Shown: positions 4,029 to 21,759 of the stretch, in pieces
How the letters are laid out: each line of letters starts with the position of its first letter
How positions within the stretch are numbered: the first letter of the stretch is position 1
Assembly: GCF_000746025.2 (NCBI RefSeq)
Contig: NZ_CP045798.1
Span: 1,660,501 to 1,724,500, forward strand
Length of the DNA: 64,000 nt
Source: Thermanaerosceptrum fracticalcis
GTDB taxonomy: Bacteria > Bacillota > Peptococcia > DRI-13
Direction of reading: 5' to 3'
The notes under the pieces: generated by a model
The model's database searches: none
The model's input: only the letters and a program-made list of their open reading frames with translations
Told to the model about the DNA's origin: nothing
Position numbers and translations under genes: made by a program

Positions 4029-4074
4029 TTGCGACAATTAAGAACCGTCCCCAGTGTCGCACCCAGTGTCGCAC
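4029..4074. repeat. Dispersed intergenic repeat (GAACCGTCCCC / GTGTCGCAC type)
   Basis: Contains TTGCGACA, then AAGAACCGTCCCCAGTGTCG, then a tandem second CCCAGTGTCGCAC. TGCGACA and TGTCGCA are inverted relative to each other, so it can fold. Related copies lie at 8237-8280 and 24657-24724, all between genes. Confidence 0.7.
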
Positions 4075-4936: not shown

Positions 4937-4962
4937 AGCAATCTCCTCTCGCAGCAATAGAT

Positions 4963-6180
4963 TTATTTTTGAGCTTGCATCATCTCATCTAAGGACCTGG
5001 CTAAGTAGAGGGCAAATTCAGGATCGTTAATGTCCGTATCCATCTCCACTAGTTCAATGCGTGGATCAAGATTTACTCTAATGGCCTCGAACAAAGCTTT
5101 ATCGGCATCAGGATCATAGAAAGGCTTACCTTCTATAGCAATTAAAGAGACCCCCTTGAGGGGAAGGACCACCTTGGTAGGCCCCTGGGCCATATTTAAT
5201 TTTTCGGCAATGATTTCTCCCAACCGTTTGCACTCCTCCGGCAGAGTCCTCATTAAGGTCACTGTGGGATTGTGTTTATATAAATTTCTCCCTTTGAATT
5301 TCTCCGGGACAGTATCCAGGGGCCCAAAATTGACCATATCCAAAGCCCCTGTAGAAACAACCTGGGGTATTCCCATCTTACCGGCAGCCTCCAGGCGATG
5401 GGGTCCCGCACTTAACACACCGCCTACCAGCTCATCACACCATTCGGTGGTGGTGATATCTAAAACCCCTTTGATAAATCCCGCTTCAACCAGGCTTTCC
5501 ATGGCCTGTCCCCCTGTCCCGGTAGCATGAAAAACCAAAACTTCATAACCCTTTTCCTCCAGGTATTCTCTGGCTTTAGTCACACAGGGGGTTGTGACAC
5601 CGAACATGGTAGCGCCAATCAAGGGTTTTTCATCTTCCGGTACCTCCACCCGGCCCTTGGCCATCCCGGCCACAGCAAAGGCTGCATTGGCCAGGATTTT
5701 GCGGGCTAGGCTGTTGAGACCGGAGATATCCACTACGGAATACATCATGGTGATATCTTTGACACCCACATAAGGACGGGTATCGCCGGAAGCTACCGTA
5801 GAAACCAATACTTTGGGCACGCCCACCGGTAAGGCCCGCATCGCCGATGAACCGATGGTGGTTCCGGCAGTACCCCCCATACCAATAATCCCGGCCACCT
5901 TTCCTTCAGCATAGAGTTTTTTCACAATTTCTGTAGCGCCCTTCATCATAGTGGTAACAGCTTCACCCCGGTCGTCCTTGGCCAATAGTTCAGTTAAACT
6001 GGACCCTCCTGCCTGAGCCACTTCCTCCCGTGTAACATCAGGCTGGAAATAAGGAGTTCCTTTTACACCCGCATCGATGACTAAGGTGCCTATTCCCGCC
6101 GACTCGATAACGTCTTTGATGAACTTGAATTCCTGTCCCTTGGTGTCTAACGTTCCCAGCACAACCACTCTTTCCTCCAT
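4963..6180 (-). CDS. Tm-1-like ATP-binding protein (UPF0261)
   Basis: A 405-residue cytoplasmic protein. The N-terminus [17 protein letters not shown] and blocks such as [32 protein letters not shown] and [14 protein letters not shown] identify the UPF0261 family, related to the nucleotide-binding part of tomato Tm-1. Length is normal for the family. RBS AAAGGAGG lies 9 bases before ATG. It is the first gene of a two-gene operon with the TIM-barrel enzyme; they probably form one enzyme or complex. The reaction is unknown. A sigma-54 promoter ends about 42 bases upstream. Confidence 0.88.
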
Positions 6181-6233
6181 GGCCCCTTCCTCCTTTATTT
6201 ATTTTTTTAGGTTTTCCTGTTGCCCCTTTATAT

Positions 6234-6249
6234 AGCAAGAACCATGCCC
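6234..6249 (-). promoter_or_regulatory. Sigma-54 (-24/-12) promoter of the Tm-1-like/TIM-barrel operon
   Basis: On the minus strand GGGCATGGTTCTTGCT matches the consensus TGGCAYRNNNNTTGCW at 15 of 16 positions, with GG and GC exactly 10 bases apart. Transcription would start near 6223, about 43 bases before the ATG at 6180. A sigma-54 activator gene lies directly upstream, which makes the call strong. Confidence 0.85.
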
Positions 6250-6276
6250 ATGAACTTTCACGACTTTTCAGTATTC

Positions 6277-6298
6277 TTTGGGAATTACTTTTCCCAAA
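6277..6298. promoter_or_regulatory. Perfect inverted repeat, candidate activator binding site
   Basis: TTTGGGAA-N6-TTCCCAAA is a perfect 8-base dyad centred about 40 bases upstream of the -24 element. It may be the upstream activating sequence bound by the Fis-type HTH of the neighbouring activator. It is closer to the promoter than most such sites. It could also form a weak hairpin. Confidence 0.5.
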
Positions 6299-6303
6299 AA
6301 GGT

Positions 6304-6335
6304 AAATCACCGGGCAAGATTTTTCCCAGTGATTT
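6304..6335 (-). terminator. Terminator at the end of the sigma-54 activator gene
   Basis: Arms AAATCACTGGG and CCCGGTGATTT pair fully with one G-U wobble around a 10-base loop, followed by ACCTTTTT on the minus strand. It overlaps the stop codon of the activator gene and separates it from the sigma-54 promoter, so the operon is expressed from its own promoter. Confidence 0.65.
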
Positions 6336-8163
6336 AATGCCGCCCCAGGCCATATTTGTTTATCTTATTTAATAAGGTCCGCCTGCTGATACCCAGGTAA
6401 TTAGCTGTATTCGTCCTGTGCCAGTGAAACTTCTCCAGGGCTTCTAGAATGGCCTTTTTCTCCATGTCCGCCGAGATAGTGCTGGCATATTGTATAAGAC
6501 TAACGTTTTCCCTTAGCTTTTTCTCTTCTACGGTATGCTGCCTCAGGTGCTGGGGCAGGTCCGCCAGGGTTATCATTTTACCCTCACAGAGAATTACTGC
6601 CCTCTCTATGACGTTTTGTAGTTCCCTTACGTTCCCCGGCCACTCATAGTTGAGGAGACACTCCAAAGCCTCCGGGGTGATTCGCGCAATCTGGCGGTTA
6701 AATTTGTCGTTTGTCTTGGCCAAAAAATGATTAACAAGGAGGGGAATATCTTCTTTATGCTGTCTTAAAGGAGGCGTATAGATTGAGACTACGTTGAGCC
6801 GGTAATACAGGTCCTCGCGAAATTCTCCTTTCTTCACCATTTGCCACAGGTCTTTGTTGGTGGCACAGATTATTCTCGCATCTACCCGAATGGTTTTGGA
6901 GCCCCCTACCCGTTCGAATTCCTGCTGTTGGATAACTCTCAGAAGCTTAGCCTGTGTTAAGAGGCTCATTTCCCCTATTTCATCTAAAAACAAAGTACCT
7001 TTGTGGGCCAGTTCAAACCTGCCCAGTCTCTGCTGTAGAGCTCCCGTAAAGGCCCCTTTTTCATGGCCAAAGAGTTCACTCTCCAGTAAATTTTCGGGCA
7101 GAGCGGCACAATTAACTTTTATAAAGGGTCCGTCACGTCTTTTGCTGTTGTAATGAATAGCCCTTGTAACCAGTTCTTTTCCGGTGCCACTTTCTCCATA
7201 TACCAGTATGTTTATCTTCTCATCCGCAACTTTACGGACAATATTGTATAATTCCTGCATAACCCGGCTCTGACCCACGATTTCGTCAAAACCCATTTTG
7301 CGTTCTAATTCTTCTTTGAGACGTACATTCTCCTGCTGTAGCCGGACGATATTCTTAAATTGATCCGTAATTTCCCTGATTCCCTCTTCGGCGGGAATCC
7401 TCTCAATACTGGAACCGCCAATATAACCCTGAGCTCCGGTGTGCTTAAAAATATAGTCCGCTTGCTCCGGATAGATCACGGGCCCTCCATAGACAAGCCA
7501 GAAACAATCCTTTCGTATGGCCGCTGCCCGGGAGAAAATATTGTTGGCCAATGCAGCAGCATTTTCAATACTCACACTCTTCTTGGCCCCTAAACTGCCT
7601 CCCACCGTGAAACCAAAATGGGCACAAATAACATCAGCCCCGACCCGGGCCATGGCTTCCCCCTGTTCGGGATCAAAGACAAAGGCTACAGTAAACAGTC
7701 CCTTTCTATGAGCACGGGATATTAATTCCACCTCATTGGCAAAGCCCATGCCCTGTTCTTCCAAGGCTTCCCTTAAAACGCCGTCAATAAGACCGACACT
7801 GGGGAAATTGTTAATGCCGTGAAATCCTTTTTGCAGAAGAAGATCAAGAAAATAGTCCCAGTCAATGGTCGGGTCACTGGCGCAGGCGCCAAAGATAATG
7901 GGGATATTTTGCACCACAGGAATGATTTCTTGGCTGCCAAATTCCAGGACCCACTGGTTGCAGTTCTTAAAAGGCATAAGGCCCGCCATAGAACTCCTGC
8001 CTGCGTTGCGAAAACGTCCCGAATTTAGCGCTAACAGTAGATCGGCGCCACCGGAAACAGCCAAACGGGCCGAGAGTCCTGACCCCACAGCAGCCCCCAC
8101 AATATTCTTTTTCTTCTGAAGGGTCTCTCGTAGATTTTCCTTAATTTTATGGTAGGTTAACAT
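6334..8163 (-). CDS. Sigma-54 activator with a TIM-barrel (PEP hydrolase-like) sensor domain
   Basis: A 609-residue regulator in three parts. Residues about 15-270 are a TIM barrel paralogous to the enzyme at 4103-4936 (LNSGRFRNAGRSSMAGLMP, NNFPSVGLIDGVLR, GMGFANEVELI, GGSSIERIP). Residues about 300-535 are the AAA+ domain with Walker A GESGTGKE, the sigma-54 contact loop GAFTGA and Walker B GTLFLDEIGE. The last 45 residues are a Fis-type helix-turn-helix (RTNTANYLGISRRTLLNKI). There is no receiver, PAS or GAF domain, so the barrel is the likely ligand sensor. In the sensor the enzyme's CHGGP reads VYGGP and GVCGTDP reads GACASDP, so catalysis may be lost. No clear Shine-Dalgarno precedes the ATG; a 4-codon upstream ORF ends at TAATG overlapping the start. 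The probable target is the sigma-54 promoter at 6234-6249. Confidence 0.9.
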   Translation of the reverse strand: MLTYHKIKENLRETLQKKKNIVGAAVGSGLSARLAVSGGADLLLALNSGRFRNAGRSSMAGLMPFKNCNQWVLEFGSQEIIPVVQNIPIIFGACASDPTIDWDYFLDLLLQKGFHGINNFPSVGLIDGVLREALEEQGMGFANEVELISRAHRKGLFTVAFVFDPEQGEAMARVGADVICAHFGFTVGGSLGAKKSVSIENAAALANNIFSRAAAIRKDCFWLVYGGPVIYPEQADYIFKHTGAQGYIGGSSIERIPAEEGIREITDQFKNIVRLQQENVRLKEELERKMGFDEIVGQSRVMQELYNIVRKVADEKINILVYGESGTGKELVTRAIHYNSKRRDGPFIKVNCAALPENLLESELFGHEKGAFTGALQQRLGRFELAHKGTLFLDEIGEMSLLTQAKLLRVIQQQEFERVGGSKTIRVDARIICATNKDLWQMVKKGEFREDLYYRLNVVSIYTPPLRQHKEDIPLLVNHFLAKTNDKFNRQIARITPEALECLLNYEWPGNVRELQNVIERAVILCEGKMITLADLPQHLRQHTVEEKKLRENVSLIQYASTISADMEKKAILEALEKFHWHRTNTANYLGISRRTLLNKINKYGLGRH

Positions 8164-8236: not shown

Positions 8237-8280
8237 GGGACGGTTCTTAACTGATTCCTATTCCAGTCAAGAACCGTCCC
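8237..8280. repeat. Inverted dispersed repeat, probably acting as the terminator of eda
   Basis: Arms GGGACGGTTCTTAACTG (8237-8253) and CAGTCAAGAACCGTCCC (8264-8280) form a 17-base stem with one mismatch around a 10-base loop. It is two inverted copies of the AAGAACCGTCCC repeat also seen at 4029 and 24657. It starts 5 bases past the aldolase stop codon and may stop transcription, although no U tract follows. Confidence 0.7.
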
Positions 8281-8284
8281 AAAT

Positions 8285-8926
8285 TTAACTTCTAAAGAGC
8301 TGAATTTTTTCTACAAATCTTCGGGCAGTATCAGTTACTAATTGATAATTGCCTTGTTTGGCACCCTCTGTTAAGGAACCACCTATTCCTACCGCTACCG
8401 CTCCTGCATCAAACCAGTTTTTTATATTATCAAGGGAGACTCCGCCTGTTGGCATGAGAGGTGCTTGTGGTAAGGGGCCTCTAACCGCTTTAATAAATGC
8501 AGGTCCTAGCATTTCTCCCGGGAATACTTTAACAATATCTGCTCCTGCCTCCATTGCCTCAATAATTTCTTTAATTGTCATAGCACCCGGCATTATAGGC
8601 ACTTGATAACGGTTACAGAGTTTAATAACATCGGTATTTACATTAGGGGTAACCACATATTCTGCTCCTGCCAGGATGGCTATTCTTGCGGTTTCAGGGT
8701 CTAGTACTGACCCAACTCCTAAAATAATGTCCTCCTTACCACAATAATCGACTAAATTTTTTATAGCATCTATTGCATTAGGTACGGTCATTGTAACCTC
8801 TATGACAGAAATCCCGCCAGCTTTAATAGCCTCTACGGTTTTAATAGCCTTTTCAGTTGTTTCCGTTCTAACGATGGCTACAATTCCACTATTGATTATT
8901 TTCCTTAATAACTGAAGTTTTTTCAT
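8285..8926 (-). CDS. eda: KDPG/KHG aldolase (2-dehydro-3-deoxy-phosphogluconate aldolase)
   Basis: A 213-residue class I aldolase, normal length. It shows GIVAIVRTETTEKA, the active-site EVTMTVPNA, GVGSVLDPETA, VTPNVN and the Schiff-base lysine in DIVKVFPGE, then LMPTGGVSLDN. It cleaves 2-keto-3-deoxy-6-phosphogluconate, or 4-hydroxy-2-oxoglutarate, to pyruvate plus an aldehyde. It is the last gene of the sugar-acid operon and matches the end step of the pathway implied by the dehydratase and kinase upstream. RBS AGGAGG lies 6 bases before ATG. Confidence 0.92.
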   Translation of the reverse strand: MKKLQLLRKIINSGIVAIVRTETTEKAIKTVEAIKAGGISVIEVTMTVPNAIDAIKNLVDYCGKEDIILGVGSVLDPETARIAILAGAEYVVTPNVNTDVIKLCNRYQVPIMPGAMTIKEIIEAMEAGADIVKVFPGEMLGPAFIKAVRGPLPQAPLMPTGGVSLDNIKNWFDAGAVAVGIGGSLTEGAKQGNYQLVTDTARRFVEKIQLFRS

Positions 8927-8996
8927 AGGAAATCCTCCTAACGTATCTTTTCTATGGAATATTCAAGGTTCAACCTACTTTACAAGCCCCTGGAAA

Positions 8997-10001
8997 TCAG
9001 GGCTTCAATAACACTTTTAGATTGGCCTCTCCTGTCCTCATAAGGTTAATTCCCTCCTGGGCCTGGTCTAAAGGCAGTTTATGGGTAATCACTTTTCCTA
9101 TTTCCGGGTACTTGGCAATCAGGTTTACGGCATGTACGAAATCTGTTTGTCGATATACTCGAGTGCCAATAATTCTTAATTCCGCAAAATTCACACGTTG
9201 CAAGTCAACAGAAGCTGGATGTTTGAATACACCTACTACTACTACCTGCCCTTGTATTCTGCAGTTTTTGATGGCCTCCTCAATTGTTATAGGTAGACCG
9301 ACCGCTTCAAACACAATATCCGCGCCTTCTCCCTTAGTCATCTGCCTGATTGCTCTATCATCAGCACTGGCTAATACCTTAAAGCCCACACTTTCGGATA
9401 TCCTACGGCGAAACTCATTGGGTTCAACAACAATTACCTGTCCTGCGCCATTAGCTTTTGCCGCATAAGCAGTCAAGAAGCCAATGGGACCTCCCCCCAG
9501 CACCAGGACGGAATCCCCCAGGCGCAGGTCAGAGGACCTGACGGCATGCACCGCCACAGCCACGGGTTCTACCAGGGCACCCAAATCATCTGACATTTGG
9601 GAGGGTAACTTAACTAATTGTGATATATTTACCCTCACAAATTCTGCAAACCCTCCATCAGCATCTATTCCTGACAGGCCTAAGGATTTACAGACATGGC
9701 TGTTGCCGGTAAGACACGGTACACACCGGTTACACGTAAGCAAGGGATTGACGGCAACCAGGTCTCCTATTTTAAATTCACCATCGTAATCTTCCGGAAG
9801 CTCAGCAATTCTGCCAGAAAACTCATGACCTAAGACCAGTGGGGCCTTTGCCCGGGGGTGAGTGCCGGAATAGATATACATATCACTCCCACATATTCCG
9901 GCATAACTGATCCGAACTAACGCCTGTCCTTCTGAGATCATTGGTTTAGCAATATCCTCATAACGTATCTCTTCTTTACCCCAATAACGTACAGCTTTCA
10001 T
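8997..10001 (-). CDS. Zinc-dependent medium-chain (sugar) alcohol dehydrogenase
   Basis: A 334-residue MDR-family dehydrogenase. It has the catalytic zinc site ICGSDM and GHEFSG, the structural zinc cluster CNRCVPCLTGNSHVC, and the NAD-binding GGGPIGFLTAYAAK. It resembles sorbitol/threonine/galactitol-phosphate dehydrogenases. The ATG at 10001 is chosen because AAGGAGG lies 5 bases before it; an in-frame ATG 21 bases upstream precedes this site. It follows the SDR gene by 10 bases. It probably oxidises a hydroxyl of a sugar acid or polyol; the exact substrate is unknown. Confidence 0.88.
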   Translation of the reverse strand: MKAVRYWGKEEIRYEDIAKPMISEGQALVRISYAGICGSDMYIYSGTHPRAKAPLVLGHEFSGRIAELPEDYDGEFKIGDLVAVNPLLTCNRCVPCLTGNSHVCKSLGLSGIDADGGFAEFVRVNISQLVKLPSQMSDDLGALVEPVAVAVHAVRSSDLRLGDSVLVLGGGPIGFLTAYAAKANGAGQVIVVEPNEFRRRISESVGFKVLASADDRAIRQMTKGEGADIVFEAVGLPITIEEAIKNCRIQGQVVVVGVFKHPASVDLQRVNFAELRIIGTRVYRQTDFVHAVNLIAKYPEIGKVITHKLPLDQAQEGINLMRTGEANLKVLLKP

Positions 10002-10011
10002 TTTATCCTCC

Positions 10012-10782
10012 TTAAAAAGCATAGGCCAGGTATCCCCCGTCTACAGGGATGACTGTACCGGTAACAAAGTCAGAAGCAGCCGAAGCAAGGAAAATAGTTG
10101 TGCCCACCAAATCACGGGGATTCCCATATCGCTTCAGCGGGGTATCGCCGGTAAGCTTAGCTTCCACTTCCGGCTGCGTTAAGACCTTTTCGTTCAGAGG
10201 GGTTACAAAGAAACCGGGGGCAATAGCATTGACAGTAACGCCATAGGGTCCCCATTCACTGGCCAGGACTTTGGTTAACTGGTTTACTCCCCCTTTCGTG
10301 GCACAATAGGCACTGGAACGGGTTATTCCTAAAAATGCCCCCATGGAAGAGATATTAATGATTTTACCGCTCCTTTGTTCAACCATAAGCGGTCCCAACA
10401 CCTGACAGGCTAAATACATGGCCTTAAGATTCACGTCCATCACACGGTCCCATTCATCTTCACTAATTTCCAGGAATGGTTTTTTTACTAATGTTCCCGC
10501 TGCGTTTACCAGGATATCTACCCTGCCAAATTCAGCAACAACCTGTTCTCTTAGTTTTTCCAACTGGTCCCTGCGTGTGGCATCAACAGAGACCAGCATG
10601 GACCGCCGGCCCAGCATCTCAATTTTTCTTACCAGTTCTTCATTTTTTTCCTCGTTTCGGCTCACGGGTATCACATCGGCTCCTGCTTCGGCCAGGCCTA
10701 GACTCATTGCGGACCCCAAACCACCGTTGGCTCCTATAAACACCGCTACTTTACCAGCTAAATCAAAAAGCTCCAACCCCAT
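10012..10782 (-). CDS. Short-chain dehydrogenase/reductase (gluconate 5-dehydrogenase-like)
   Basis: A 256-residue classical SDR with the cofactor motif IGANGGLGSAMS (an unusual start for TGxxxGxG), DILVNAAG, the catalytic ISSMGAFLG Ser and YCATK (YxxxK), and a C-terminal TGTVIPVDGGY. It belongs to the group that includes gluconate 5-dehydrogenase and KduD. The ATG at 10782 has AGGAG 7 bases upstream; a GTG two codons earlier overlaps the ribosome site and is rejected. Its place in the operon suggests interconversion of keto and hydroxy sugar acids. Confidence 0.88.
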   Translation of the reverse strand: MGLELFDLAGKVAVFIGANGGLGSAMSLGLAEAGADVIPVSRNEEKNEELVRKIEMLGRRSMLVSVDATRRDQLEKLREQVVAEFGRVDILVNAAGTLVKKPFLEISEDEWDRVMDVNLKAMYLACQVLGPLMVEQRSGKIINISSMGAFLGITRSSAYCATKGGVNQLTKVLASEWGPYGVTVNAIAPGFFVTPLNEKVLTQPEVEAKLTGDTPLKRYGNPRDLVGTTIFLASAASDFVTGTVIPVDGGYLAYAF

Positions 10783-10893
10783 ATACACACTCCTTTACCT
10801 TATATTTTGGTCATATCTCTCATCCTCACTTGTTCGTTCAGGCCCATCAAGCCGGTAGTTTAGTTTCACAGCATCACTACGGAAAAGAACAGT

Positions 10894-11847
10894 TTATTGG
10901 TTTACCCAGTTAGGCGGCGTCTTGCCCTGCAAAGCGTCCACCAGGTTCTGGGCGGCAGCCATTCCCATACGTTTATTGGCTTCATATGAATAGGCGCCAA
11001 TATGGGGACTTACGACTACGTTATTAAGCTTGAGGAGTGGATTGTTCTTGTCGGGGGGTTCCGGGCTGAAAGCATCAAGGGCTGCCCCGGCTAAACGCCC
11101 TTCTTCCAGTGCAAGCAGTAAGTCTTCTTCATTTATGAGCTCCCCACGTGCTGTATTAATAAGAAAGGCTCCCTGTTTCATTTCTCCAAGTGTGGTCTTA
11201 TTAATTATGTTCCGCGTCTCAGGTGTTAATGGTAAGTGCAGTGAAAGGAAGTCGGCCTTTTCGATTGCTTCACTAAGACCTGTCAGAATGACACCGTTTT
11301 CCCTGGCAAATTTCTCATCGGGATATTTGTCGTATGCCAAAACTTCCATAGAAAAACCTTTAGCTCGTAAAGCCACTCTACGGCCAATGGCACCAAAGCC
11401 TAATAAACCAAGGGTCTTACCGTACAGCTCAGGCCCTGTGAGACGCAGCCACTGACCTTCCTTTGTAGATTTGTCGGCCAGTGGTATTTTTCGTGCCACA
11501 GCGAGCATAAGGGCAAAAGTCAAATCAGCTACCGCTTCACTGTTGGAGTCGGGACAGTTTGTCACTTTGATCCCCAATTCCCTGGCCCTTTCCAGGGGTA
11601 TATTATCCACGCCTACCCCGTGCTTGGCCACTACCTTCAGTTTTTTTCCTTTTTCCAGGACTTTGGTAGTGACGGGGTCCACTCCCACCAAAAGTCCATC
11701 ATAGTCGGGGATATATTGGCAAAGTTCCTCTTCCGTCATCGGTCTGCCCAATGGATTCTTATGGACTTCCAATCCGGCATCCTGCAGTATCCTTAAGGGT
11801 TCATCACTGTGTTTTCCAAAGGACAGGGCTGTAACCAGTACTTTCAT
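10894..11847 (-). CDS. D-isomer-specific 2-hydroxyacid dehydrogenase (SerA-like)
   Basis: A 317-residue NAD-dependent dehydrogenase with VVAKHGVGVDNIPL, the Rossmann motif LGLLGFGAIGRRVALRA, the catalytic Arg in NTARGELINEEDL and the catalytic His in VSPHIGAYSYEA. It lacks the ACT domain of long phosphoglycerate dehydrogenases. It overlaps the dehydratase stop by 4 bases (ATGA), so translation is coupled. In this setting it may reduce or oxidise a 2-keto sugar acid rather than serve serine synthesis; that is inference. Its RBS GAGGAG lies within the end of the dehydratase gene. Confidence 0.88.
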   Translation of the reverse strand: MKVLVTALSFGKHSDEPLRILQDAGLEVHKNPLGRPMTEEELCQYIPDYDGLLVGVDPVTTKVLEKGKKLKVVAKHGVGVDNIPLERARELGIKVTNCPDSNSEAVADLTFALMLAVARKIPLADKSTKEGQWLRLTGPELYGKTLGLLGFGAIGRRVALRAKGFSMEVLAYDKYPDEKFARENGVILTGLSEAIEKADFLSLHLPLTPETRNIINKTTLGEMKQGAFLINTARGELINEEDLLLALEEGRLAGAALDAFSPEPPDKNNPLLKLNNVVVSPHIGAYSYEANKRMGMAAAQNLVDALQGKTPPNWVNQ

Positions 11848-13487
11848 TCTTTTATCTCCTCTCTGACTGCACCTTGTACCGTAGACCCTACGGATTTGGC
11901 ATAGTAATAAAGTAAACTGCGTTGATCAATTTCCTTTTCCGGTTTTCGGACAGCTCTTTTCTTTAAATCACCTTCGACTAAAATATCCAGTCTTCTTTCC
12001 GGTATATTAATATATACTAAATCTCCGTCCTGTACATATGCTATTGGGCCATCCAGTTCCGCTTCCGGCGAAACATAACCAATGGAAAGGCCGGAGGAAG
12101 CTCCGGAATACCTTCCGTCGGTAATAATGGCTACATGAGGTACCTGGTGGACAATTTCTGTAAGCCTGTGCAATTCCCTCATCCCCGGTCCCCCCTGAGG
12201 CCCCTCATAGCGTACCACCACAACATCCCCTTCTTTGATATCTCCTTTAAATGCCGCTTCCATGGCGGCATCTTCCGAGTCAAAAACCCTCGCCGGACCC
12301 TTGAAGACCCGCTCCTGTTGGTCGATGGCAGATACTTTTACAACAGCACCCTCAGGTGCCAAGGTTCCATACAGTACAACAATCCCCCCCTCAGGTTCCA
12401 GGGGGTTGTCGAGGGAACGTATTACGTTTCTGTCGAGTACTCTTTTGTTTTTGGTATTCTCCGCGAGTGATTTGCCTGTAACTGTAATAACGTCTGCCTG
12501 TAGTAGGGGGAGAAGCTCTTTTATAACAGCCCCGACACCTCCTGCTAAATAAAGGTCTTTCACCGTTCTTTCGTCGCTGTTGGGGGTTATTGCAGCGAGA
12601 AGGGGCGTCTTTTTGCTGATCTCATCGAAATCTTTAAGCTCTAAGGCTATGGAGGCCTCCCGTGCCAATGCCAGAAGATGTAAGACACTGTTCAGTGAAC
12701 CTCCTAAAGCGGCGACAACTGTGATGGCGTTTAAAAAGGCCTCCCGTGTCAAGATATCCCTGGGTTTTAGGTCCTCTTTCACAAGCTCTACTATTCTCCG
12801 ACCGCTTGCTTCAGCAATATTTAACGAGAGCGCTGAGTTTGCCGGGGCAAGAGCCATATCAGGAAGAGTCATTCCCATGGCTTCTGCCACAACACACATA
12901 GTGTTGGCTGTACCCAGAAAGGGGCAAATCCCGGGGCCCGTGTAATATGATAATGTTTTTTCAACCAGTTCTTTCTCGCTGATTGTACCCGCTAAAAAGT
13001 CCTTTCTTGCTTTTTTTGATTCTTTAGGGGTGATACAGTTTAAAGTAGGCCCCCCCGTTACAATTATGGAAGGTATATTCATCCGCGCAGCCGCCATCAG
13101 CATGGCGGGGACAATTTTGTCGCAGGAAGCGATGAGTATCATCCCGTCGAAAATCCCATGTCCACTGACCATGGCCTCTACCGAATCGGCAATCAATTCC
13201 CGGCTCGGCAGAGGATACCTCATGCCGCCATGTCCCTGAGTGATACCATCACAAATAGCAATGGTGTTAAATTCCAGCGGCAAACCTCCAGCCGCCAGGA
13301 CGCCTTGCTTGACCCGCTCCGCTACCTGGCGCAAATGTACGTGCCCCGGGACAATCTCGTTCCAAGAGTTGGCAATGGCGATGATCGGTCTGTCCAGCTG
13401 TGTGATATTAATGCCCGTTGAGCAAAGATGTCCTTTGGAAATTGCCCTTTGGTAGGAAGGAAAACTCTGAAGTCGATTCGGGCTCAT
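11844..13487 (-). CDS. IlvD/Edd family sugar-acid dehydratase
   Basis: A 547-residue Fe-S dehydratase. It carries CDKIVPAMLMAAAR (second cluster Cys) and CPFLGTANTMCVVAEAMG (third Cys). At the first IlvD Cys position it reads NSWNEIVPGHVHL, with Gly where dihydroxy-acid dehydratases have Cys. It is therefore unlikely to be a standard [2Fe-2S] IlvD and fits better as an aldonate dehydratase making a 2-keto-3-deoxy acid. The ATG at 13487 has AAGGAG 10 bases upstream; the GTG at 13496 sits against that site. It lies between the FGGY kinase and the 2-hydroxyacid dehydrogenase. Confidence 0.87.
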   Translation of the reverse strand: MSPNRLQSFPSYQRAISKGHLCSTGINITQLDRPIIAIANSWNEIVPGHVHLRQVAERVKQGVLAAGGLPLEFNTIAICDGITQGHGGMRYPLPSRELIADSVEAMVSGHGIFDGMILIASCDKIVPAMLMAAARMNIPSIIVTGGPTLNCITPKESKKARKDFLAGTISEKELVEKTLSYYTGPGICPFLGTANTMCVVAEAMGMTLPDMALAPANSALSLNIAEASGRRIVELVKEDLKPRDILTREAFLNAITVVAALGGSLNSVLHLLALAREASIALELKDFDEISKKTPLLAAITPNSDERTVKDLYLAGGVGAVIKELLPLLQADVITVTGKSLAENTKNKRVLDRNVIRSLDNPLEPEGGIVVLYGTLAPEGAVVKVSAIDQQERVFKGPARVFDSEDAAMEAAFKGDIKEGDVVVVRYEGPQGGPGMRELHRLTEIVHQVPHVAIITDGRYSGASSGLSIGYVSPEAELDGPIAYVQDGDLVYINIPERRLDILVEGDLKKRAVRKPEKEIDQRSLLYYYAKSVGSTVQGAVREEIKE

Positions 13488-13509
13488 TACAATCACACTC
13501 CTTAATCTC

Positions 13510-15030
13510 TTACCTTTTCATTTTAGCCAGCATGGCGAAACTTTCCTGTAACCCCCAGTATGTCTTCTCATAGACCTTGTATATTTCCTGGTATAGCCTG
13601 TGGTTTTCCCAATCCGGCGTACACTGATAACTGGTGGTTACCATTTTTTCGGCTACGTTGACGGAAGGGATGATCTTAAGGGCCGCCATCCCTAAAATAG
13701 CTGCCCCCAGGGCCGAACCTTCCACACCATCAGGCACTTTTACCTCACAGCCAAAGACATCACTCAATATGCTGAGCCATAAAGGAGAACGGGCAAAACC
13801 ACCGGAGGCCCGTATCTCCACAGGTTTCCCGTTGAGCTCTGCTAAAGCCTTATACACACTGTACATGCGATAGACCACACCCTCCATGATGGCCCTGGCC
13901 ACATGTTTCTTGGTGTGCTCCAGTCCCAGCCCAAAAAGCACTCCCCGCGCATTGGCATTCCAGTAGGGGCTTCTCTCCCCCGCTAAAAAGGGTAAGCAGA
14001 GGAGCCCGTCGGAACCTGGGGGTATTTCCTGTGCCCAGCGGTTCATCACCTCATAATCCCCTGTACTTCCCAATTCCATATCATCCGTCATGATTTTGTC
14101 TCGGTACCAGCGGTAGACAATGCCACCGTTGTTAATGGCTCCCCCGGAGACCCACATGTTATCTGTCATTTGATAGCACCAGGTCCGACCTTGGGGGTCT
14201 ATTTTAGGTTCCGGCGACATTACCCGTACTGCCCCGCTGGTTCCTACCATTGCCGTCATAATGCCCTGGCCCACAGCCCCCGAACCAAGATTAGAGCACG
14301 TACCGTCACCGCCCCCTATGACCCAGGGTGTGCCCGGGTCTAATCCCATTTCCCTGGCCCAGACAGGTCTGATGGGGGGAAGTACGGTTTGGGTTGAAAC
14401 GAGGGTCGATAGTTTCTCGGTGTTAATCCCTATCAGCTCCAGAACTTCGTTATCCCATTTCAACTCATGAAGATTCAACAGTCCCGATCCGGAGGCGACA
14501 GAAAAATCCACAAGATACTCTCCGGTGAGCTCGGCCAGAATATATTCTTTTATGGAAATAAATTTATGAGCTTTCTCAAATACATCTGGCATCTGTTTTT
14601 TCCACCAGAGAAGCTTACCGGGTAAATACATGGGATGGGGAGGACAGCCTGTTCGTTGATAAAAGTAATGAGGAAGTCTTTGCTCCTTAATGAATTCCAC
14701 TTCAGCCAGGGCACGGCTGTCAGCCCAGGGTAAACAATTGGTTAATGGTGTATTCTGATGGTCTACAGCCAGGACACTGTGAAAAACAGAACTTAGGGAT
14801 ATCAATTCAATCCCCCAGTTCTCATCTTTTAGAGATCCTAATAATTCTTTAAGACAGCGGACGAAAGTGTTTAGAATCAGGCGGGGGTCCTGTTCCGCCC
14901 AACCCCATCTAGGGTGGATCAAGGGGTATTCCATAGTACGACTGCCAATAATATTTCCTTCAAAATCAAAAGCCACAACTTTACAGCTTCCAGTACCTAT
15001 ATCCCCACCAATCACCGCTCTTTTTTGCAT
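13510..15030 (-). CDS. FGGY-family carbohydrate kinase (gluconate/keto-deoxy sugar-acid kinase)
   Basis: A 506-residue kinase, normal for the family. It shows the N-terminal phosphate loop GGDIGTGSCKVVAFD, the mid motif GSGLLNLHELKWDN, VGTSGAVRVMSPEP and the C-terminal signature ASGGFARSPLWLSILSDVFG. The closest named functions are gluconokinase and xylulokinase. In the operon it would phosphorylate the sugar acid, or its dehydrated product, before the aldolase. RBS AGGAGG lies 6 bases before ATG, and RpiR ends 10 bases upstream. Confidence 0.87.
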   Translation of the reverse strand: MQKRAVIGGDIGTGSCKVVAFDFEGNIIGSRTMEYPLIHPRWGWAEQDPRLILNTFVRCLKELLGSLKDENWGIELISLSSVFHSVLAVDHQNTPLTNCLPWADSRALAEVEFIKEQRLPHYFYQRTGCPPHPMYLPGKLLWWKKQMPDVFEKAHKFISIKEYILAELTGEYLVDFSVASGSGLLNLHELKWDNEVLELIGINTEKLSTLVSTQTVLPPIRPVWAREMGLDPGTPWVIGGGDGTCSNLGSGAVGQGIMTAMVGTSGAVRVMSPEPKIDPQGRTWCYQMTDNMWVSGGAINNGGIVYRWYRDKIMTDDMELGSTGDYEVMNRWAQEIPPGSDGLLCLPFLAGERSPYWNANARGVLFGLGLEHTKKHVARAIMEGVVYRMYSVYKALAELNGKPVEIRASGGFARSPLWLSILSDVFGCEVKVPDGVEGSALGAAILGMAALKIIPSVNVAEKMVTTSYQCTPDWENHRLYQEIYKVYEKTYWGLQESFAMLAKMKR

Positions 15031-15040
15031 ACTTAACCTC

Positions 15041-15901
15041 CTAGTATCGTTTTAAAGCTATACTGTGCCGCACTTTTTCCAAAGCAGCAATACTCTCTTT
15101 TTGCCGAAGAAAGGAAACGCCAACAATCAGTAAATCAATGACACAAAGCTGGGCAATGCGAGCAGCCATGGCCTCACTTCGGAAAGTAGTTTCCCTGGCC
15201 GCTACATAGAGGGAGATATCAGACACTTTGGTAATGGGGGCCCTCATATAGCTTGTGATACAAATGGTCTTAGCCCCTGATGCCTTAGCATGTTTGAGTG
15301 ATTGAATGGTATCTTTGGTACTGCCTGAATGAGAAATACCAACCGCAACATCATGCTCAGTAAGAAATCCTGCAGAAATAATCTGCATATGAGGATCTGC
15401 ATAAGCCGCAGACGGTATCCCCGTTTTAAACATTTTGTGGTGAGCATCCAGGGCAATAAAACCAGACGCCCCCACACCGTAAAACTCCACCTTATTGGCA
15501 TTGGCGATAATGCTTATGGCTTTTTCCAGTTCAGCTATATCTATCATCCTTAAAGTATCGCTTAGCGTCTGGATTCCACTGTAAAATACCTTCTGGGTAA
15601 TTGTACTAATATTGTCAGTTAGTTCAATTTCTTCATGGATTCCTTTTAATGGGTCTACAAGGTCGTTATATAATGCATTTTTAAGTTCCTGAAAGCCGGA
15701 ACAGCCGATTTTTTTACATAACCTAACAATAGTGGCAAGTGCTGTTTCCGTCTTTTCGGAAAGGTTTGTAATGGTCATATGCATAATCTCTTCCGGGTTT
15801 TCCAATATAAAATTCGCAACTTTGCTTTCTGCCGGTTTTAAATTAGGTACAATACTGCGTAAACGGACCAGAATACCGGACGGCTTAATGAAAGAGTTCA
15901 T
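15041..15901 (-). CDS. MurR/RpiR family transcriptional regulator
   Basis: A 286-residue regulator. Residues 1-80 are the RpiR-type helix-turn-helix (AESKVANFILENPEEI, SEKTETALATIVRLCKKIG). Residues about 125-265 are a SIS sugar-phosphate isomerase fold (EFYGVGASGFIALDAHHK, VGISHSGSTKDTIQ). Such proteins sense phosphorylated sugars. It heads the sugar-acid operon and is divergent from the TRAP operon across a 328-base spacer, so it probably controls both. Confidence 0.9.
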   Translation of the reverse strand: MNSFIKPSGILVRLRSIVPNLKPAESKVANFILENPEEIMHMTITNLSEKTETALATIVRLCKKIGCSGFQELKNALYNDLVDPLKGIHEEIELTDNISTITQKVFYSGIQTLSDTLRMIDIAELEKAISIIANANKVEFYGVGASGFIALDAHHKMFKTGIPSAAYADPHMQIISAGFLTEHDVAVGISHSGSTKDTIQSLKHAKASGAKTICITSYMRAPITKVSDISLYVAARETTFRSEAMAARIAQLCVIDLLIVGVSFLRQKESIAALEKVRHSIALKRY

Positions 15902-16229
15902 CCTATCCCCCCTTTTGATGTTTTTTCCTTTTTATTATAGTACTAATATTCAACCATGTCCGTTTTTCTCCTCCTAAAAAGGGAAATATTTTTTTCGGTT
16001 TATACAACACGCCCTTGATTTAATAAAGAATCTCCATATTCTATTGGGCAAATTTTCACAGACATCAATAAATAAATTAGGAAATTTTTTTACTGATCGA
16101 GAAGGAATTTTGCAAAGTACGTCAAATCTTATTCATAGAGTTTTTAAAAAAATTGTGAAAAAGGAGGGATACTGACAAGGTTAGTTAGTTAAACAACCAC
16201 CTATAAATCATTTTGGGGAGGTCAATATT
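15902..16229. promoter_or_regulatory. Divergent control region between rpiR and the TRAP operon
   Basis: A 328-base AT-rich spacer. On the minus strand CGGACA (15957-15962), 17 bases, TATAAT (15934-15939) is a good sigma-A promoter for rpiR and the sugar-acid operon. For the plus strand, TTGCAA at about 16111 is a possible -35 with a poor -10. No clear RpiR dyad was found by eye. A strong RBS GGGGAGG precedes dctP. Confidence 0.55.
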
Positions 16230-17252
16230 ATGTGGAAAAGAATCCTTGCTCTCGTTTTGGTACTTACTTTTGTGTTTAGTTTAGCAGGTTGTGGTAAGCC
16301 GGCCCCTGCACCAGACGCCAATAAAGAGAAGAAACCAGAAGTTAGGGTTGTCAAAATTGCTAACTATTTCCCGCCCACCCATCCTCAGAACATTGCTCTG
16401 AAAGAAAAATTTAAACCCTACCTTGAGGAAAAAACAAAAGGTGCTTTCAAAGTTGAAATTTACGACAACAATCAATTAGGTTCCGAAAAAGAATTTATTA
16501 ACGGCGTAAGCATGGGGACCATTGAAATGGCTGTAGCAGGCCTCCTACAAGCGGAAATGCTTCCAAAATTAAAGATTCCTGAATTCCCGTACCTCTTCAG
16601 AGATTATGATCATGCTATGAAGGTATTAAACGGGCCTATTGGCGAAGAAATTACCCAGGGTATGATTGAAAAAGGGACACGTCCTCTAGCCTGGAGCGTA
16701 AACGGTCTCCGTGCCATTTCTAACTCCAAACACCCCATTAAGTCGTTGAAAGATACAAAAGACATTAAATTAAGAGTTCCCACCAACAGTATCTTTATTG
16801 ACGGCATGCAGGCCCTCGGCTTTAACACAGTTTCTATGCCAATGACCGAACTCTTCAGTGCCCTGCAGCAAAAGGTTGTTGACGGCCAGGAAAACCCTGC
16901 ACCTACTGTGCTCACCAGCGGATGGTATGAAGCGCAGAAATATATCACCCTCTCCTATCACATTCTGGGGCCCAACATCATGATAATCAGCGAAAAGTTC
17001 TGGCAGACCCTCACGCCTGAACAACAAAAAATCTTTAAAGAAGCGGCTTTAGAGTATGCCAAATATGAAGTTGATCTGATGAAGAAATTTGACCCAGAGG
17101 CTTTGGCTAAATTAAAGGAAAAAGGTCTCCAAATAGATGAACTGACTGATAGACCCGAGTGGGAAAAAGCCGTTCAACCCGTTTATGAGAAATGGTATAA
17201 GCAGTATCCCGAATTCAAGGATATTGTGCAAAGAATCAAGGACACCAAGTAA
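16230..17252 (+). CDS. dctP: TRAP transporter substrate-binding lipoprotein, DctP family
   Basis: A 340-residue extracytoplasmic receptor. The signal peptide ends in the lipobox LAGC (Cys at about 21) followed by a short Pro/Ala linker. The DctP fold is shown by NYFPPTHPQNIAL, LGSEKEFINGVSMGTIEMA, LRVPTNSIFIDGMQALG (the ligand-clamp Arg region), MPMTELFSALQQKVVDGQEN and LSYHILGPNIMIIS. It captures an organic acid outside the membrane for DctQM. The divergent sugar-acid operon suggests a sugar acid. An internal terminator follows it. Confidence 0.92.
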   Translation: MWKRILALVLVLTFVFSLAGCGKPAPAPDANKEKKPEVRVVKIANYFPPTHPQNIALKEKFKPYLEEKTKGAFKVEIYDNNQLGSEKEFINGVSMGTIEMAVAGLLQAEMLPKLKIPEFPYLFRDYDHAMKVLNGPIGEEITQGMIEKGTRPLAWSVNGLRAISNSKHPIKSLKDTKDIKLRVPTNSIFIDGMQALGFNTVSMPMTELFSALQQKVVDGQENPAPTVLTSGWYEAQKYITLSYHILGPNIMIISEKFWQTLTPEQQKIFKEAALEYAKYEVDLMKKFDPEALAKLKEKGLQIDELTDRPEWEKAVQPVYEKWYKQYPEFKDIVQRIKDTK

Positions 17253-17278
17253 AGACAATTATGCCTATAAAACTTAAT

Positions 17279-17318
17279 AAGAGAGCCGGCTCTTCCGGCT
17301 CTCTTAATATTGTTTTTT
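17279..17318 (+). terminator. Intrinsic terminator between dctP and dctQ
   Basis: A perfect 11-base stem, AAGAGAGCCGG-CTCTT-CCGGCTCTCTT, is followed by AATATTGTTTTTT. It lies 27 bases after the dctP stop inside the operon. Partial read-through would make more receptor than permease, a usual ratio for binding-protein transporters. Confidence 0.85.
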
Positions 17319-17367
17319 ATTTCTTATTGCGGAGCCCATTCATAGCAGCTTAACGGGAGGTGTATTA

Positions 17368-17859
17368 ATGAAAATTTTACTCTATGCTGAACGTGCTTTA
17401 GAACTATTTACTGCTTTTCTTTTAGCCTGCATGGCTATCATTGTCTTCATCAACGTAGTTGCCCGTTATGTCTTTGACAAAGCCTTCCCCTGGAACGAGG
17501 AAATATCTCTTTTTATGTTTACATGGGTAGTTTTCCTGGGAGCTCTCCTGGCTTTCAAGCGCCACCGTCATCTAGGCCTGGATATTGTTATCAACCTGCT
17601 GCCCAACTTGGGAAAAAAGGTGGCCGCATTTATAGGGAATATCCTGATGGCAGGTGCCCTGTTGATTCTCATACAGGGGGGTATTAAATTTTATTTTCAG
17701 ACTGTGGTCTGGCCCGCACCGGCAACCCAGATTCCTTACGGATATGTTAACGCCGTTGTTCCTTTTTCTGCTTTTTTTATGCTCCTACTCCTCATCAAGG
17801 ATACTGTTGAGATTTTCCAGAAAGAAAAAAACGAGGGTGAGGGGGGAACACAATGTTAA
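17368..17859 (+). CDS. dctQ: TRAP transporter small permease, DctQ family
   Basis: A 163-residue integral membrane protein with four predicted spans. It shows the family pattern INVVARYVFDKAFPWNEEIS and FKRHRHLGLDIVI. It pairs with DctM and couples to DctP. RBS GGGAGG precedes ATG by 7 bases. Its end overlaps the dctM start by 7 bases, so the two permease genes are translationally coupled. Confidence 0.92.
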   Translation: MKILLYAERALELFTAFLLACMAIIVFINVVARYVFDKAFPWNEEISLFMFTWVVFLGALLAFKRHRHLGLDIVINLLPNLGKKVAAFIGNILMAGALLILIQGGIKFYFQTVVWPAPATQIPYGYVNAVVPFSAFFMLLLLIKDTVEIFQKEKNEGEGGTQC

Positions 17860-19133
17860 CTATTTTTCTAGTATCGTTATTTGGCTTCTTAGCCTTCGGC
17901 ATACCGGTGGCCTTTGCCTTGATTCTCAGTACCGCTGCCCTCATGCTCTTCCACAACAACTTTGACACCCAGATTGTCGTTCAGCACATGATGGCCGGGG
18001 CGGAAAACTACACCCTGATGTCCATCCCCTTCTTTATGCTGGCAGGAGAAATCATGAATCAAGGCGGCATTTCTGTCCGCATCGTAAAGTTTGCCAATGA
18101 CCTGATTGGCCACGTCCGCGGAGGTTTGGGCTATGTAACTGTAGTAGCCTGTATGATTTTTGCCGGCGTCTCCGGTACTGCCGTTGCCGACACTGCGGCA
18201 GTTGGGTCTATTCTCCACCCTGTCATGAAAAAAGAAGGATACGAATCGGACCGCAGTGCAGCCCTGATCTGTGCAGCAGGATGCACCGGCCCCATTATCC
18301 CGCCAAGTATGCCCATGATTCTGTACGGTGTTATCGGCGGAGTTTCCATTGTAGGCCTCTTCTTAGGCGGAATCGTACCAGGCCTTATCATGGGTTTTGC
18401 CCTGATGATCTACTGGTATATTCATTCCCGTAAAAAAGATTACCCGGTGAAACAGCGTGTTCCCTTTATCCAACTTTTGAAAAGTATGCTTGACGCCATT
18501 TGGGCCCTGATCCTTCCCTTGGTTATTATGGGGGGTATTGTATTTGGAATTTTTACGCCGACTGAAGCCGCTGTAGTAGCGGTATGGTATGCTTTCTTTG
18601 TCTCCTTTTTTATTTATCGTGAATTAAAATTAAGTAAACTTCCAGAGATACTACTTGATGCAGCCATAAGTTCTGCTGTTGTGATGTTTGTGGCATCAGC
18701 AGCTACTTCAACCGCCTTCATGATTACCGTCGGCAGGATACCTCAAGCCATTGCAGAGGTGATCACGTCCATTTCCACCAACCCCTTAGTGGTTATGTTT
18801 ATCATTAATATCTTCCTCTTACTTGTCGGTGCTGTATTAGACTTAACACCTGCTATGCTTATTTTAGCCCCTATACTTATACCTCTTGTTAAAAACCTGG
18901 GTATTGATCCTTTATACTTCGGGGTAGTTATGGTCTTTAACCTCTGTATAGGTCTCCTTACCCCCCCTGTAGGAACCGTTCTTTACGTTGGCTGCGGGTT
19001 AAGCGGTCACTCAATTATGCAGCTTTCCAGGCGGGTATTGCCATTTGTCGTTGTGCTTATCGCCGTCTTGTTTTTAATCACCTATGTCCCGGAAACCATT
19101 CTTTTTATCCCCAAATGGTTCCAGGGACGGTAA
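17853..19133 (+). CDS. dctM: TRAP transporter large permease, DctM family
   Basis: A 426-residue protein with about 12 membrane spans. It shows typical DctM sequences: FFMLAGEIMNQGGIS, GGLGYVTVVACMIFAGVSGT, CTGPIIPPSMPMILYG, GIFTPTEAAVVAVWYA and VMVFNLCIGLLTPPVGT. It forms the ion-driven translocation channel. RBS GGGGGG lies ahead of ATG. A terminator follows at 19202. Confidence 0.93.
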   Translation: MLTIFLVSLFGFLAFGIPVAFALILSTAALMLFHNNFDTQIVVQHMMAGAENYTLMSIPFFMLAGEIMNQGGISVRIVKFANDLIGHVRGGLGYVTVVACMIFAGVSGTAVADTAAVGSILHPVMKKEGYESDRSAALICAAGCTGPIIPPSMPMILYGVIGGVSIVGLFLGGIVPGLIMGFALMIYWYIHSRKKDYPVKQRVPFIQLLKSMLDAIWALILPLVIMGGIVFGIFTPTEAAVVAVWYAFFVSFFIYRELKLSKLPEILLDAAISSAVVMFVASAATSTAFMITVGRIPQAIAEVITSISTNPLVVMFIINIFLLLVGAVLDLTPAMLILAPILIPLVKNLGIDPLYFGVVMVFNLCIGLLTPPVGTVLYVGCGLSGHSIMQLSRRVLPFVVVLIAVLFLITYVPETILFIPKWFQGR

Positions 19134-19201
19134 TTTGTCTAATAACATTCAGTTAGAATAAGACACTTTAAAATTCATATTACTTACCCTCCCATTTACG
19201 T

Positions 19202-19226
19202 ACCCCTTTCGGGGTTCTTTTTTTCA
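19202..19226 (+). terminator. Intrinsic terminator of the TRAP operon
   Basis: ACCCC-TTTC-GGGGT followed by TCTTTTTTTC, 68 bases after the dctM stop. Confidence 0.8.
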
Positions 19227-19404
19227 TTCCTATATATCGACAAATATCCATTAGCTAGTGAGTATAGTCCATTTAGCAGTTAACTATATCCAAAAAACAT
19301 CCCAAAAATTAGTGATAGCAAATGTGAGCGTGAGATTTGCTGTCTTTTTTTAGCCTAATTTTATCCAATCATGATTAATACTAAAAAATCGCCGTTTTTT
19401 TCTC

Positions 19405-19434
19405 TTGAAATACAAAAAACCAGTTTTTTATAAT
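19405..19434 (+). promoter_or_regulatory. Sigma-A promoter of groESL
   Basis: TTGAAA (19405-19410), an 18-base spacer, then TATAAT (19429-19434). The CIRCE operator starts 12 bases downstream, as expected for an HrcA-repressed promoter. Confidence 0.8.
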
Positions 19435-19445
19435 TCAAATTGGAA

Positions 19446-19472
19446 TTAGCACTCGCTTTGATTGAGTGCTAA
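19446..19472 (+). promoter_or_regulatory. CIRCE operator (HrcA binding site)
   Basis: A perfect TTAGCACTC-N9-GAGTGCTAA. It overlaps the predicted transcription start of groES. HrcA would repress the operon at normal temperature and release it on heat shock. hrcA itself is not in the window. Confidence 0.97.
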
Positions 19473-19496
19473 CAATACGTACAGGAGGTGAATGCG

Positions 19497-19784
19497 ATGA
19501 ACATTAAACCCCTTGCAGACAGAATTTTGGTCGAACCTGTGGAAAAGAATACGGTAAGCCCCGGCGGTGTGATTATCCCCGACACAGCCAAGGAAAAGCC
19601 CCAGGAAGGTAAAGTACTGGCTGTTGGTCCCGGAGCCATGGGAGATAACGGTCAGCGTATTCCCTTAGAGATTAAAACCGGTGACCGGGTTCTTTTCTCC
19701 ACCTATGCCGGAACAGAGGTGAAACTGGACGGCAAAAAGCTTTACATAATGAAAGAAAGCGAAGTATTGGCCGTCTTGGAATAA
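19497..19784 (+). CDS. groS: Co-chaperonin GroES
   Basis: A 95-residue protein with NIKPLADRILVEPVEK, the mobile loop around TVSPGGVIIPDTAKEKPQ, and EGKVLAVGPGA. It caps the GroEL ring during folding. The ATG at 19497 is used because AGGAGG lies 8 bases before it; a GTG at 19488 overlaps that site. groEL follows 38 bases later. Confidence 0.97.
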   Translation: MNIKPLADRILVEPVEKNTVSPGGVIIPDTAKEKPQEGKVLAVGPGAMGDNGQRIPLEIKTGDRVLFSTYAGTEVKLDGKKLYIMKESEVLAVLE

Positions 19785-19795
19785 GTCTCATTTAG

Positions 19796-21430
<1,635 letters not shown>

Positions 21431-21436
21431 AAAACA

Positions 21437-21474
21437 AGCAGGGACCTCTGAAAAAGAAGTCCCTGCTGTTTTTT
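21437..21474 (+). terminator. Intrinsic terminator of groESL
   Basis: Arms AGCAGGGAC and GTCCCTGCT around a 13-base loop, followed by GTTTTTT, 7 bases after the groEL stop. Confidence 0.9.
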
Positions 21475-21525
21475 CAAGAGACCTAATTGAACACAACCCT
21501 TCCATCCTCTCCCACTTTAACAGAA

Positions 21526-21759
21526 CTAACGGGAACGGGTCTGATTGTATTTTGTGCCAGCCTTGAAAGTCTTTGATGCAGTCGCTTTTATCCACCTGTC
21601 GTTTGAATCTCCTGCCTTTATGTATGTGTTTTTGTCCACCCCTCCCATGTTATTTGCACCCCTGAGACGGACACTGTAACTTACCGTCTCCGTCAGTCCT
21701 GCCGTATGCCTTATTACAACGTCCAGCTTATGGTTAAACTTAAGTATTTCCTTTTTCAT
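21526..21759 (-). CDS. Small basic hypothetical protein
   Basis: A 77-codon frame. It reads MKKEILKFNHKLDVVIRH, then TVSYSVRLRGANNMGG, with a Lys/Arg-rich tail; no known family is recognised. It is preceded by GGAAAAGGG, a weak ribosome site. A hairpin-forming inverted repeat lies 20-50 bases upstream. No other gene fits the 549-base gap between groEL and purK. Coding is possible but not proven. Confidence 0.4.
   Translation of the reverse strand: MKKEILKFNHKLDVVIRHTAGLTETVSYSVRLRGANNMGGVDKNTYIKAGDSNDRWIKATASKTFKAGTKYNQTRSR

Follow-up and report, generated by a model that had tools for sequence, protein, structure and literature searches.

A TRAP-fed sugar-acid locus of Thermanaerosceptrum fracticalcis and its probably Edd-like dehydratase

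Introduction

In Aspergillus niger, GluC/GluD, GluE and GluF lead from 2-keto-L-gulonate through L-idonate and 5-keto-D-gluconate to D-gluconate and then 6-phosphogluconate (6PG), by steps established or proposed in the pathway sections of two papers that also give the conversion of L-idonate to gluconate in Escherichia coli (PMC5306355, PMC5814732). Here we compare such routes with a locus at 8285-19133 of a window, the whole 64,000-nucleotide stretch of T. fracticalcis DNA analysed (contig NZ_CP045798.1, 1,660,501 to 1,724,500, forward strand). It looks like one import-and-breakdown locus for a sugar acid, and its gene set is not a chance neighbourhood.

Whether an organism has the Entner-Doudoroff pathway is usually decided from the 6PG dehydratase Edd, but the Edd model is not passed in this group, where the models of dihydroxyacid dehydratase (DHAD, IlvD) score best. 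Edd has two specific regions, docked 6PG contacts its H47, K190 and R194, and the E. coli and soybean DHADs are inactive on 6PG, according to the sections on these enzymes in one study (PMC10847513). The DHAD name would therefore predict no such activity. In their sections on gluconate-fermenting Bacillota, two papers could give no secure identification of the dehydratase gene (PMC4179846, PMC5322786).

In our reading, the locus turns hexonates that have another C5 configuration than D-gluconate, a keto group or both into pyruvate and glyceraldehyde-3-phosphate (GAP), and its dehydratase is of a sister lineage of Edd and not a DHAD. We put the probability of this reading at about 0.62. Judged by its sequence, the dehydratase probably works like Edd without being a TIGR01196 member.

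Results

The first-pass annotation had placed together a TRAP transporter, an RpiR regulator, an FGGY kinase, an IlvD/Edd dehydratase, a KDPG (2-keto-3-deoxy-6-phosphogluconate) aldolase and three dehydrogenases, namely a short-chain (SDR), a zinc-dependent medium-chain (MDR) and a D-2-hydroxyacid dehydrogenase (D2HDH). All of them are there, with Pfam matches far over cut-off, and the transporter has its P, Q and M subunits (Table 1). On the minus strand, the seven genes that start with RpiR (15901) and end with the aldolase (8285) are closely packed, with overlaps of 11 nucleotides between SDR and MDR and 4 between D2HDH and dehydratase, so they look like one operon; DctPQM diverge from 16230. 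The genome is a single contig of 3.8 Mb with seven IlvD/Edd-family genes.

The dehydratase tree holds 25 rows of the window's lineage, 4 of Edd and 23 others (DHADs, AraD-type enzymes and paralogs). It splits the lineage plus Edd from the rest, E. coli and Bacillus IlvD included, with 99/95 support, and the lineage alone has 87/85. When domain 2 is left out of the alignment, the 23 others continue to group on one side (100, quick method), but the lineage ceases to be a single group separate from Edd (2 changes). The members are from Bacillota and 50-60% identical, except for the copy of the sister genome (L066, a Peptococcaceae metagenome-assembled genome, MAG) at 99%; L and G are our numbers for loci and genomes. 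Of the 146 genomes in the family to which L094's genome belongs, 3, that of L094 included, hold a member at E <=1e-160. A description of the lineage was not met in the open-access literature, a scope outside which most subscription papers fall.

Several residues follow this split. R164, which aligns with Edd R194, and Y185 are in all 25 lineage and all four Edd rows and in none of the 23 others. H443 is equally constant, with one occurrence among the 23, and is followed by a basic residue in the lineage and Edd. Domain 2 has 38 residues in every lineage and Edd row against 40-45 in the others. The domain-1 insert (LAHGFAA..., a motif from the Edd section of PMC10847513) is in 4/4 Edd, 2/23 other and 0/25 lineage rows. 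In 24 of the 25 lineage rows a conserved Lys precedes the Arg by three residues, and His23 is in the N-terminal helix of all. The FGGY-linked members added later (L194, L215, L219) all have the R and the H-R; R and H are missing from L240 and L058, two dehydratases linked to PfkB.

By score, the window's dehydratase falls under the Edd cut-off (TIGR01196, 327.8 of 708.25 bits) and under those of DHAD (TIGR00110, 595.7 vs 618.15; PRK00911, 607.6 vs 644). Its structure model has a pLDDT (predicted local distance difference test) of 89.3.

Within 6 kb of the lineage dehydratase, the 33 loci have FGGY in 24, KDPG aldolase in 20 and GntP and D2HDH in 11 each. The corresponding counts are 2 (FGGY) and 0 (aldolase) for 48 other IlvD loci as control, with Fisher p about 4e-11 and 1e-10, values that overstate the case. 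There is kinship among the loci, and most of the control is archaeal, which makes the contrast in part one between phyla. The control flanks are slightly shorter (9.5 vs 10.9 kb), and the 33 loci are not independent, L068 and L089 being on one contig and L066 the sister genome's copy. For the other six IlvD genes that this genome holds, FGGY lies within 6 kb in 0/6 and aldolase in 1/6. The Edd model exceeds its cut-off in none of 30 genomes (control 2/14), and the gluconokinase model is matched in 31/31 and passed in 12. In L081, a lineage member sits in a GntR-gluconokinase-dehydratase-aldolase-GntP run whose kinase passes TIGR01314 (792.5 over 648.55).

Four of those six other IlvD/Edd genes also lie near sugar-acid genes. 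TRAP and LarA-family genes are close to L055 and L056; near L058 are a weak PfkB match and a KDPG aldolase that shares 62% identity with that of the window; an SDR and MDR pair is about 7 kb off L059. Sugar acids seem to be a speciality of this organism.

The gene set is colinear in the sister genome (G001) at 98% DNA identity and recurs in another Bacillota genome (L194/L238) at 53-77% protein identity. The latter has RpiR, FGGY, dehydratase (61%), D2HDH, SDR (62%), MDR (55%), DctP (68%; 59% to that of L199), DctQ and DctM, with a protein of the dihydrodipicolinate synthase (DHDPS) family at the place of the KDPG aldolase. Among 398 genomes searched for MDR relatives, five others gave six further loci (L194-L199), and MDR adjoins SDR in all six.

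The end of the gene set is exchanged in some relatives. In L199 the order DctPQM-LarA-MDR-SDR-FGGY-D2HDH is followed by a 6PG dehydrogenase that passes TIGR00872 (409.7 bits over 297.2), and L198 has MDR-SDR-D2HDH-FGGY with a 54% relative of that enzyme. Since it takes the place of dehydratase and aldolase, the two look like alternative exits, and so 6PG is the likely product of the kinase and D-gluconate that of the dehydrogenases. Relatives of L199's enzyme are also in 5/33 dehydratase loci (L067, L080, L081, L087, L090). L195-L197 have PfkB and KDPG aldolase instead, and an ordinary IlvD-type dehydratase (L240) adjoins L197 in the same genome.

Other loci combine FGGY, dehydratase, D2HDH and a LarA-family protein (L051, L215, L219), with TRAP genes and KDPG aldolase added in L051 and L219. 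LarA homologues include D-gluconate 2-epimerases, as one passage of PMC7583248 has it, and in related loci the C5 redox pair may therefore be joined by a C2 epimerase.

For the window, we infer the substrate of each enzyme, the order of the steps and the imported acid as follows. The TRAP system would import a sugar acid, the candidates being L-idonate (the C2 epimer of L-gulonate), 2-keto-L-gulonate, 5-ketogluconate and 2-ketogluconate. D2HDH would reduce the 2-keto forms, 2-keto-L-gulonate to L-idonate and 2-keto-D-gluconate to D-gluconate. The MDR would oxidise L-idonate to 5-keto-D-gluconate and the SDR reduce this to D-gluconate, which the FGGY kinase would phosphorylate to 6PG. The IlvD/Edd protein would dehydrate 6PG to KDPG, to be split by the aldolase into pyruvate and GAP. 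The three dehydrogenase families would thereby match the three redox steps of A. niger.

This route agrees with the earlier suggestion that a less usual hexonate or its epimer undergoes redox rearrangement ahead of its dehydration. The suggestion fits the known L-idonate and ketogluconate logic (E. coli idnDO; A. niger gluC/D-gluE-gluF) and is backed by the 6PG dehydrogenase exchange, which suggests gluconate/6PG for the meeting point.

The aldolase passes both KDPG aldolase models (NF005119, 289.3 bits over 238; TIGR01182, 182.2 over 156.05). The SDR reaches 240.7 of 279 bits for gluconate 5-dehydrogenase and is 37% identical to E. coli IdnO, and D2HDH is 36% identical to E. coli GhrB. The gluconokinase model is still the best-scoring NCBIfam model of the FGGY kinase, which stays under its cut-off (Table 1). 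The gene content is compatible with an L-idonate pathway (MDR with SDR, gluconate kinase and a 6PG-using enzyme), but the MDR, SDR and FGGY scores are below curated cut-offs.

Table 1. Genes and terminal hairpin of the sugar-acid locus (window positions)
Feature	Positions	Strand	Basis or remark
Hairpin, 18-pair stem	8237..8280	-	directly 3' of the aldolase stop; probable operon end
KDPG/KHG aldolase (Eda-like)	8285..8926	-	PF01081; NF005119, TIGR01182
Zn-dependent MDR, proposed L-idonate (C5) dehydrogenase	8997..10022	-	Pfam; 29% to E. coli IdnD
SDR, proposed 5-keto-D-gluconate reductase	10012..10788	-	nearest models gluconate 5-dehydrogenase and KduD
D2HDH, proposed 2-keto-L-gulonate/2-ketogluconate reductase	10894..11847	-	PF02826/PF00389
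IlvD/Edd-family dehydratase, proposed 6PG dehydratase of Edd-sister lineage	11844..13496	-	R164, Y185, H443-R444
FGGY kinase, proposed gluconokinase	13510..15030	-	TIGR01314 500.5 bits, below cut-off 648.55
RpiR/MurR-family regulator (HTH_6 + SIS)	15041..15901	-	Pfam
DctP solute-binding protein	16230..17252	+	PF03480; best PDB sequence match 4pbq
DctQ small TRAP membrane subunit	17368..17859	+	PF04290
DctM large TRAP membrane subunit	17853..19133	+	PF06808

Next to the locus is a Tm-1-like operon (4103-8163, minus strand) of a sigma-54 activator (6334-8163), a UPF0261 gene (4963-6180) and a PF09370 gene (4103-4957). The activator's N-terminal PF09370 TIM barrel is a homologue of the enzyme-like protein encoded two genes downstream, and the fusion recurs beside UPF0261 and PF09370 in L200-L204 and L053. 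Plant Tm-1 is made of two halves, one UPF0261 and the other PF09370, as a section of PMC5028733 states. For the window's UPF0261 protein there is a match in PDB entry 9mpy, which by its title has acetovanillone bound. HpeHI (PMC9618137) was considered as a UPF0261 enzyme and ruled out by its description.

A candidate sigma-54 site, GGGCATGGTTCTTGCT, precedes UPF0261 at 6234-6249 (minus strand); a sigma-54 promoter scan of the window gave sites not above chance (23 vs 29.4 expected). The 12-mer GGGACGGTTCTT flanks the operon on both sides (4040-4051, 8237-8280) and is found as the full hairpin at two genome places. In comparison with G001 (L052, L053), the sugar-acid locus and the following genes (8289-21539) have 98% DNA identity and the Tm-1-like operon, placed elsewhere, 82%. 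Recent exchange, insertion or a mixed MAG are possible causes of this contrast. In a different setting, UPF0261/PF09370 pairs adjoin a RuBisCO-like protein in L062 and L209 (by Pfam for L209, the same blast cluster in L062).

Discussion

The dehydratase may instead act on unphosphorylated D-gluconate to give 2-keto-3-deoxygluconate (KDG), which a kinase would turn into KDPG, with FGGY as KDG kinase or in another branch. A gluconate dehydratase route has been inferred for clostridia in sections of two papers (PMC4179846; PMC5322786), and the PfkB kinase adjoining the dehydratase of L088 has a KDG kinase model as its best NCBIfam match, under cut-off (214 of 400). We hold this unlikely, as the usual neighbour is FGGY (24/33, against 2/33 for PfkB within 6 kb), 6PG dehydrogenase stands in for dehydratase and aldolase in relatives, and both PfkB-linked dehydratases examined lack the Edd-type Arg and His-basic pair. 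A different question is whether the three dehydrogenases open the route in parallel to 2-ketogluconate, 5-ketogluconate and L-idonate, a reading that departs from the serial route only in the order of use. D2HDH occurs without MDR and SDR in dehydratase loci such as L051, L069, L088 and L219, and the E. coli GhrB/TkrA enzyme is active on both 2-ketoacids. The constant MDR-SDR adjacency in the six further loci is, however, expected of a two-step couple, and the odds seem to us somewhat against parallel entry.

An L-gulonate route of the Haemophilus influenzae type would have the MDR produce D-fructuronate from L-gulonate and the SDR D-mannonate, followed by dehydration to KDG. The HiGul layout likewise joins TRAP, two dehydrogenases, dehydratase, kinase and aldolase, and the best PDB sequence match of DctP (E 1.9e-66), its nearest solved relative, is L-gulonate-bound HiGulP, 4pbq (both from the HiGul sections of PMC5788505). 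UxuA (TIGR00695) is matched neither in this genome (G000) nor in G094, G156 and G271, the search having covered no other mannonate dehydratase family, and this argues against a HiGul continuation. Moreover, a PfkB KDG kinase is missing from the locus, where the kinase is gluconokinase-like, and D2HDH would be left without explanation, so the L-gulonate route is disfavoured as quite improbable. Still less can be said for the first-pass annotation's idea that the Tm-1-like operon belongs to the locus. The two are adjacent on the same strand, and G000, G001, G094 and G423 hold both. Yet the 18-pair hairpin lies between them, and the operon is placed elsewhere in G094 (L205 vs L194) and on another contig in G423 and in G001, where homology ends at window 8289. 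Sugar-acid enzymes are in 0/20 PF09370 loci from 19 other genomes, L203 alone having a DctP match (22% identity). We thus reject a common pathway on present evidence as very improbable.

Several observations weigh against the preferred reading, i.e. hexonate breakdown through 6PG by an Edd-sister dehydratase. None of MDR, SDR, FGGY and D2HDH reaches a curated equivalog cut-off, so sequence similarity alone is not decisive. The dehydratase is closer in plain identity to E. coli IlvD (39%) than to Edd (35%), a DHAD is the PDB entry that it matches best in sequence, and its L081 relative passes the DHAD model TIGR00110 (634.0 over 618.15). In the lineage, Edd H47 has no counterpart and the K190 position is Ser in 21/25. 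In L088, PfkB adjoins the dehydratase and FGGY is absent within 6 kb, and in L196 and L197 the MDR/SDR relatives (50-57%) sit with PfkB, not FGGY. A DHDPS-type protein takes the position expected for the aldolase in L194, L080 and L091.

The structure model also compares better with pentonate dehydratases and DHADs (Z 41.6-49.6) than with Edd 2gp4 (Z 33.4), the latter apo and with 420 residues aligned. We dropped fold comparison as a discriminator between Edd and DHAD, the sole listed Edd structure being apo, with fewer residues aligned and the lowest family score. As for the DHDPS-family protein, it lies in or beside the dehydratase operon of these three loci, all without KDPG aldolase, and is a possible replacement aldolase.

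The locus probably follows ordinary pathway logic, its three dehydrogenases being accounted for by known chemistry, with one unusual part, a probable Edd-like 6PG dehydratase lineage in Bacillota under the DHAD name. The chances appear even that Bacillota hold such a second 6PG dehydratase type, an Edd sister without domain 1, which would give many gluconate or hexonate users an Entner-Doudoroff route and close here a TRAP-fed counterpart of the fungal glucuronate route. If true, a route that annotation reports missing would exist in many of these organisms. The assignment is open to direct test by a signature of short domain 2, Arg, Tyr and His-basic pair and by the neighbour rule (FGGY vs PfkB), which could correct annotation in many genomes.

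Comparison with known systems

The locus resembles the E. coli L-idonate pathway in its proposed MDR and SDR couple, which there takes L-idonate through 5-keto-D-gluconate to gluconate, then to 6PG and the Entner-Doudoroff split. It differs in having TRAP import, RpiR and FGGY in place of IdnT, IdnR and IdnK, which belong to other families. It further has an IlvD-labelled dehydratase instead of Edd and a D2HDH in the operon, and the identities are 29-37%.

With the fungal D-glucuronate pathway, as its descriptions in the two papers cited above go, the locus would share three successive oxidoreductases to gluconate and then 6PG, and GluF is also an SDR. That pathway is of a fungus, has no TRAP and is proposed to continue into the pentose phosphate pathway; for GluC, GluD and GluE the comparison here is one of reactions. 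The HiGul system (HiGulPQM, HiGulD, HiUxuB, HiUxuA, HiKdgK, HiKdgA) is similarly TRAP-fed, with two dehydrogenases, a dehydratase, a kinase, a KDPG aldolase and the nearest solved solute-binding protein, but uses UxuA and a KDG kinase where FGGY and the IlvD/Edd dehydratase are found here.

The dehydratase itself is like Edd (TIGR01196) in the closest tree side, the short domain 2 and the equivalents of R194, Y215, H488 and the basic residue. It is unlike Edd in lacking the domain-1 insert and the conserved H47 and K190, and in its low score under that model. With IlvD (TIGR00110, PRK00911) it has in common the overall fold, the lack of the insert and the current best model name, whereas both cut-offs missed, the Edd-type residues, the other tree side and the sugar-acid neighbours set it apart.

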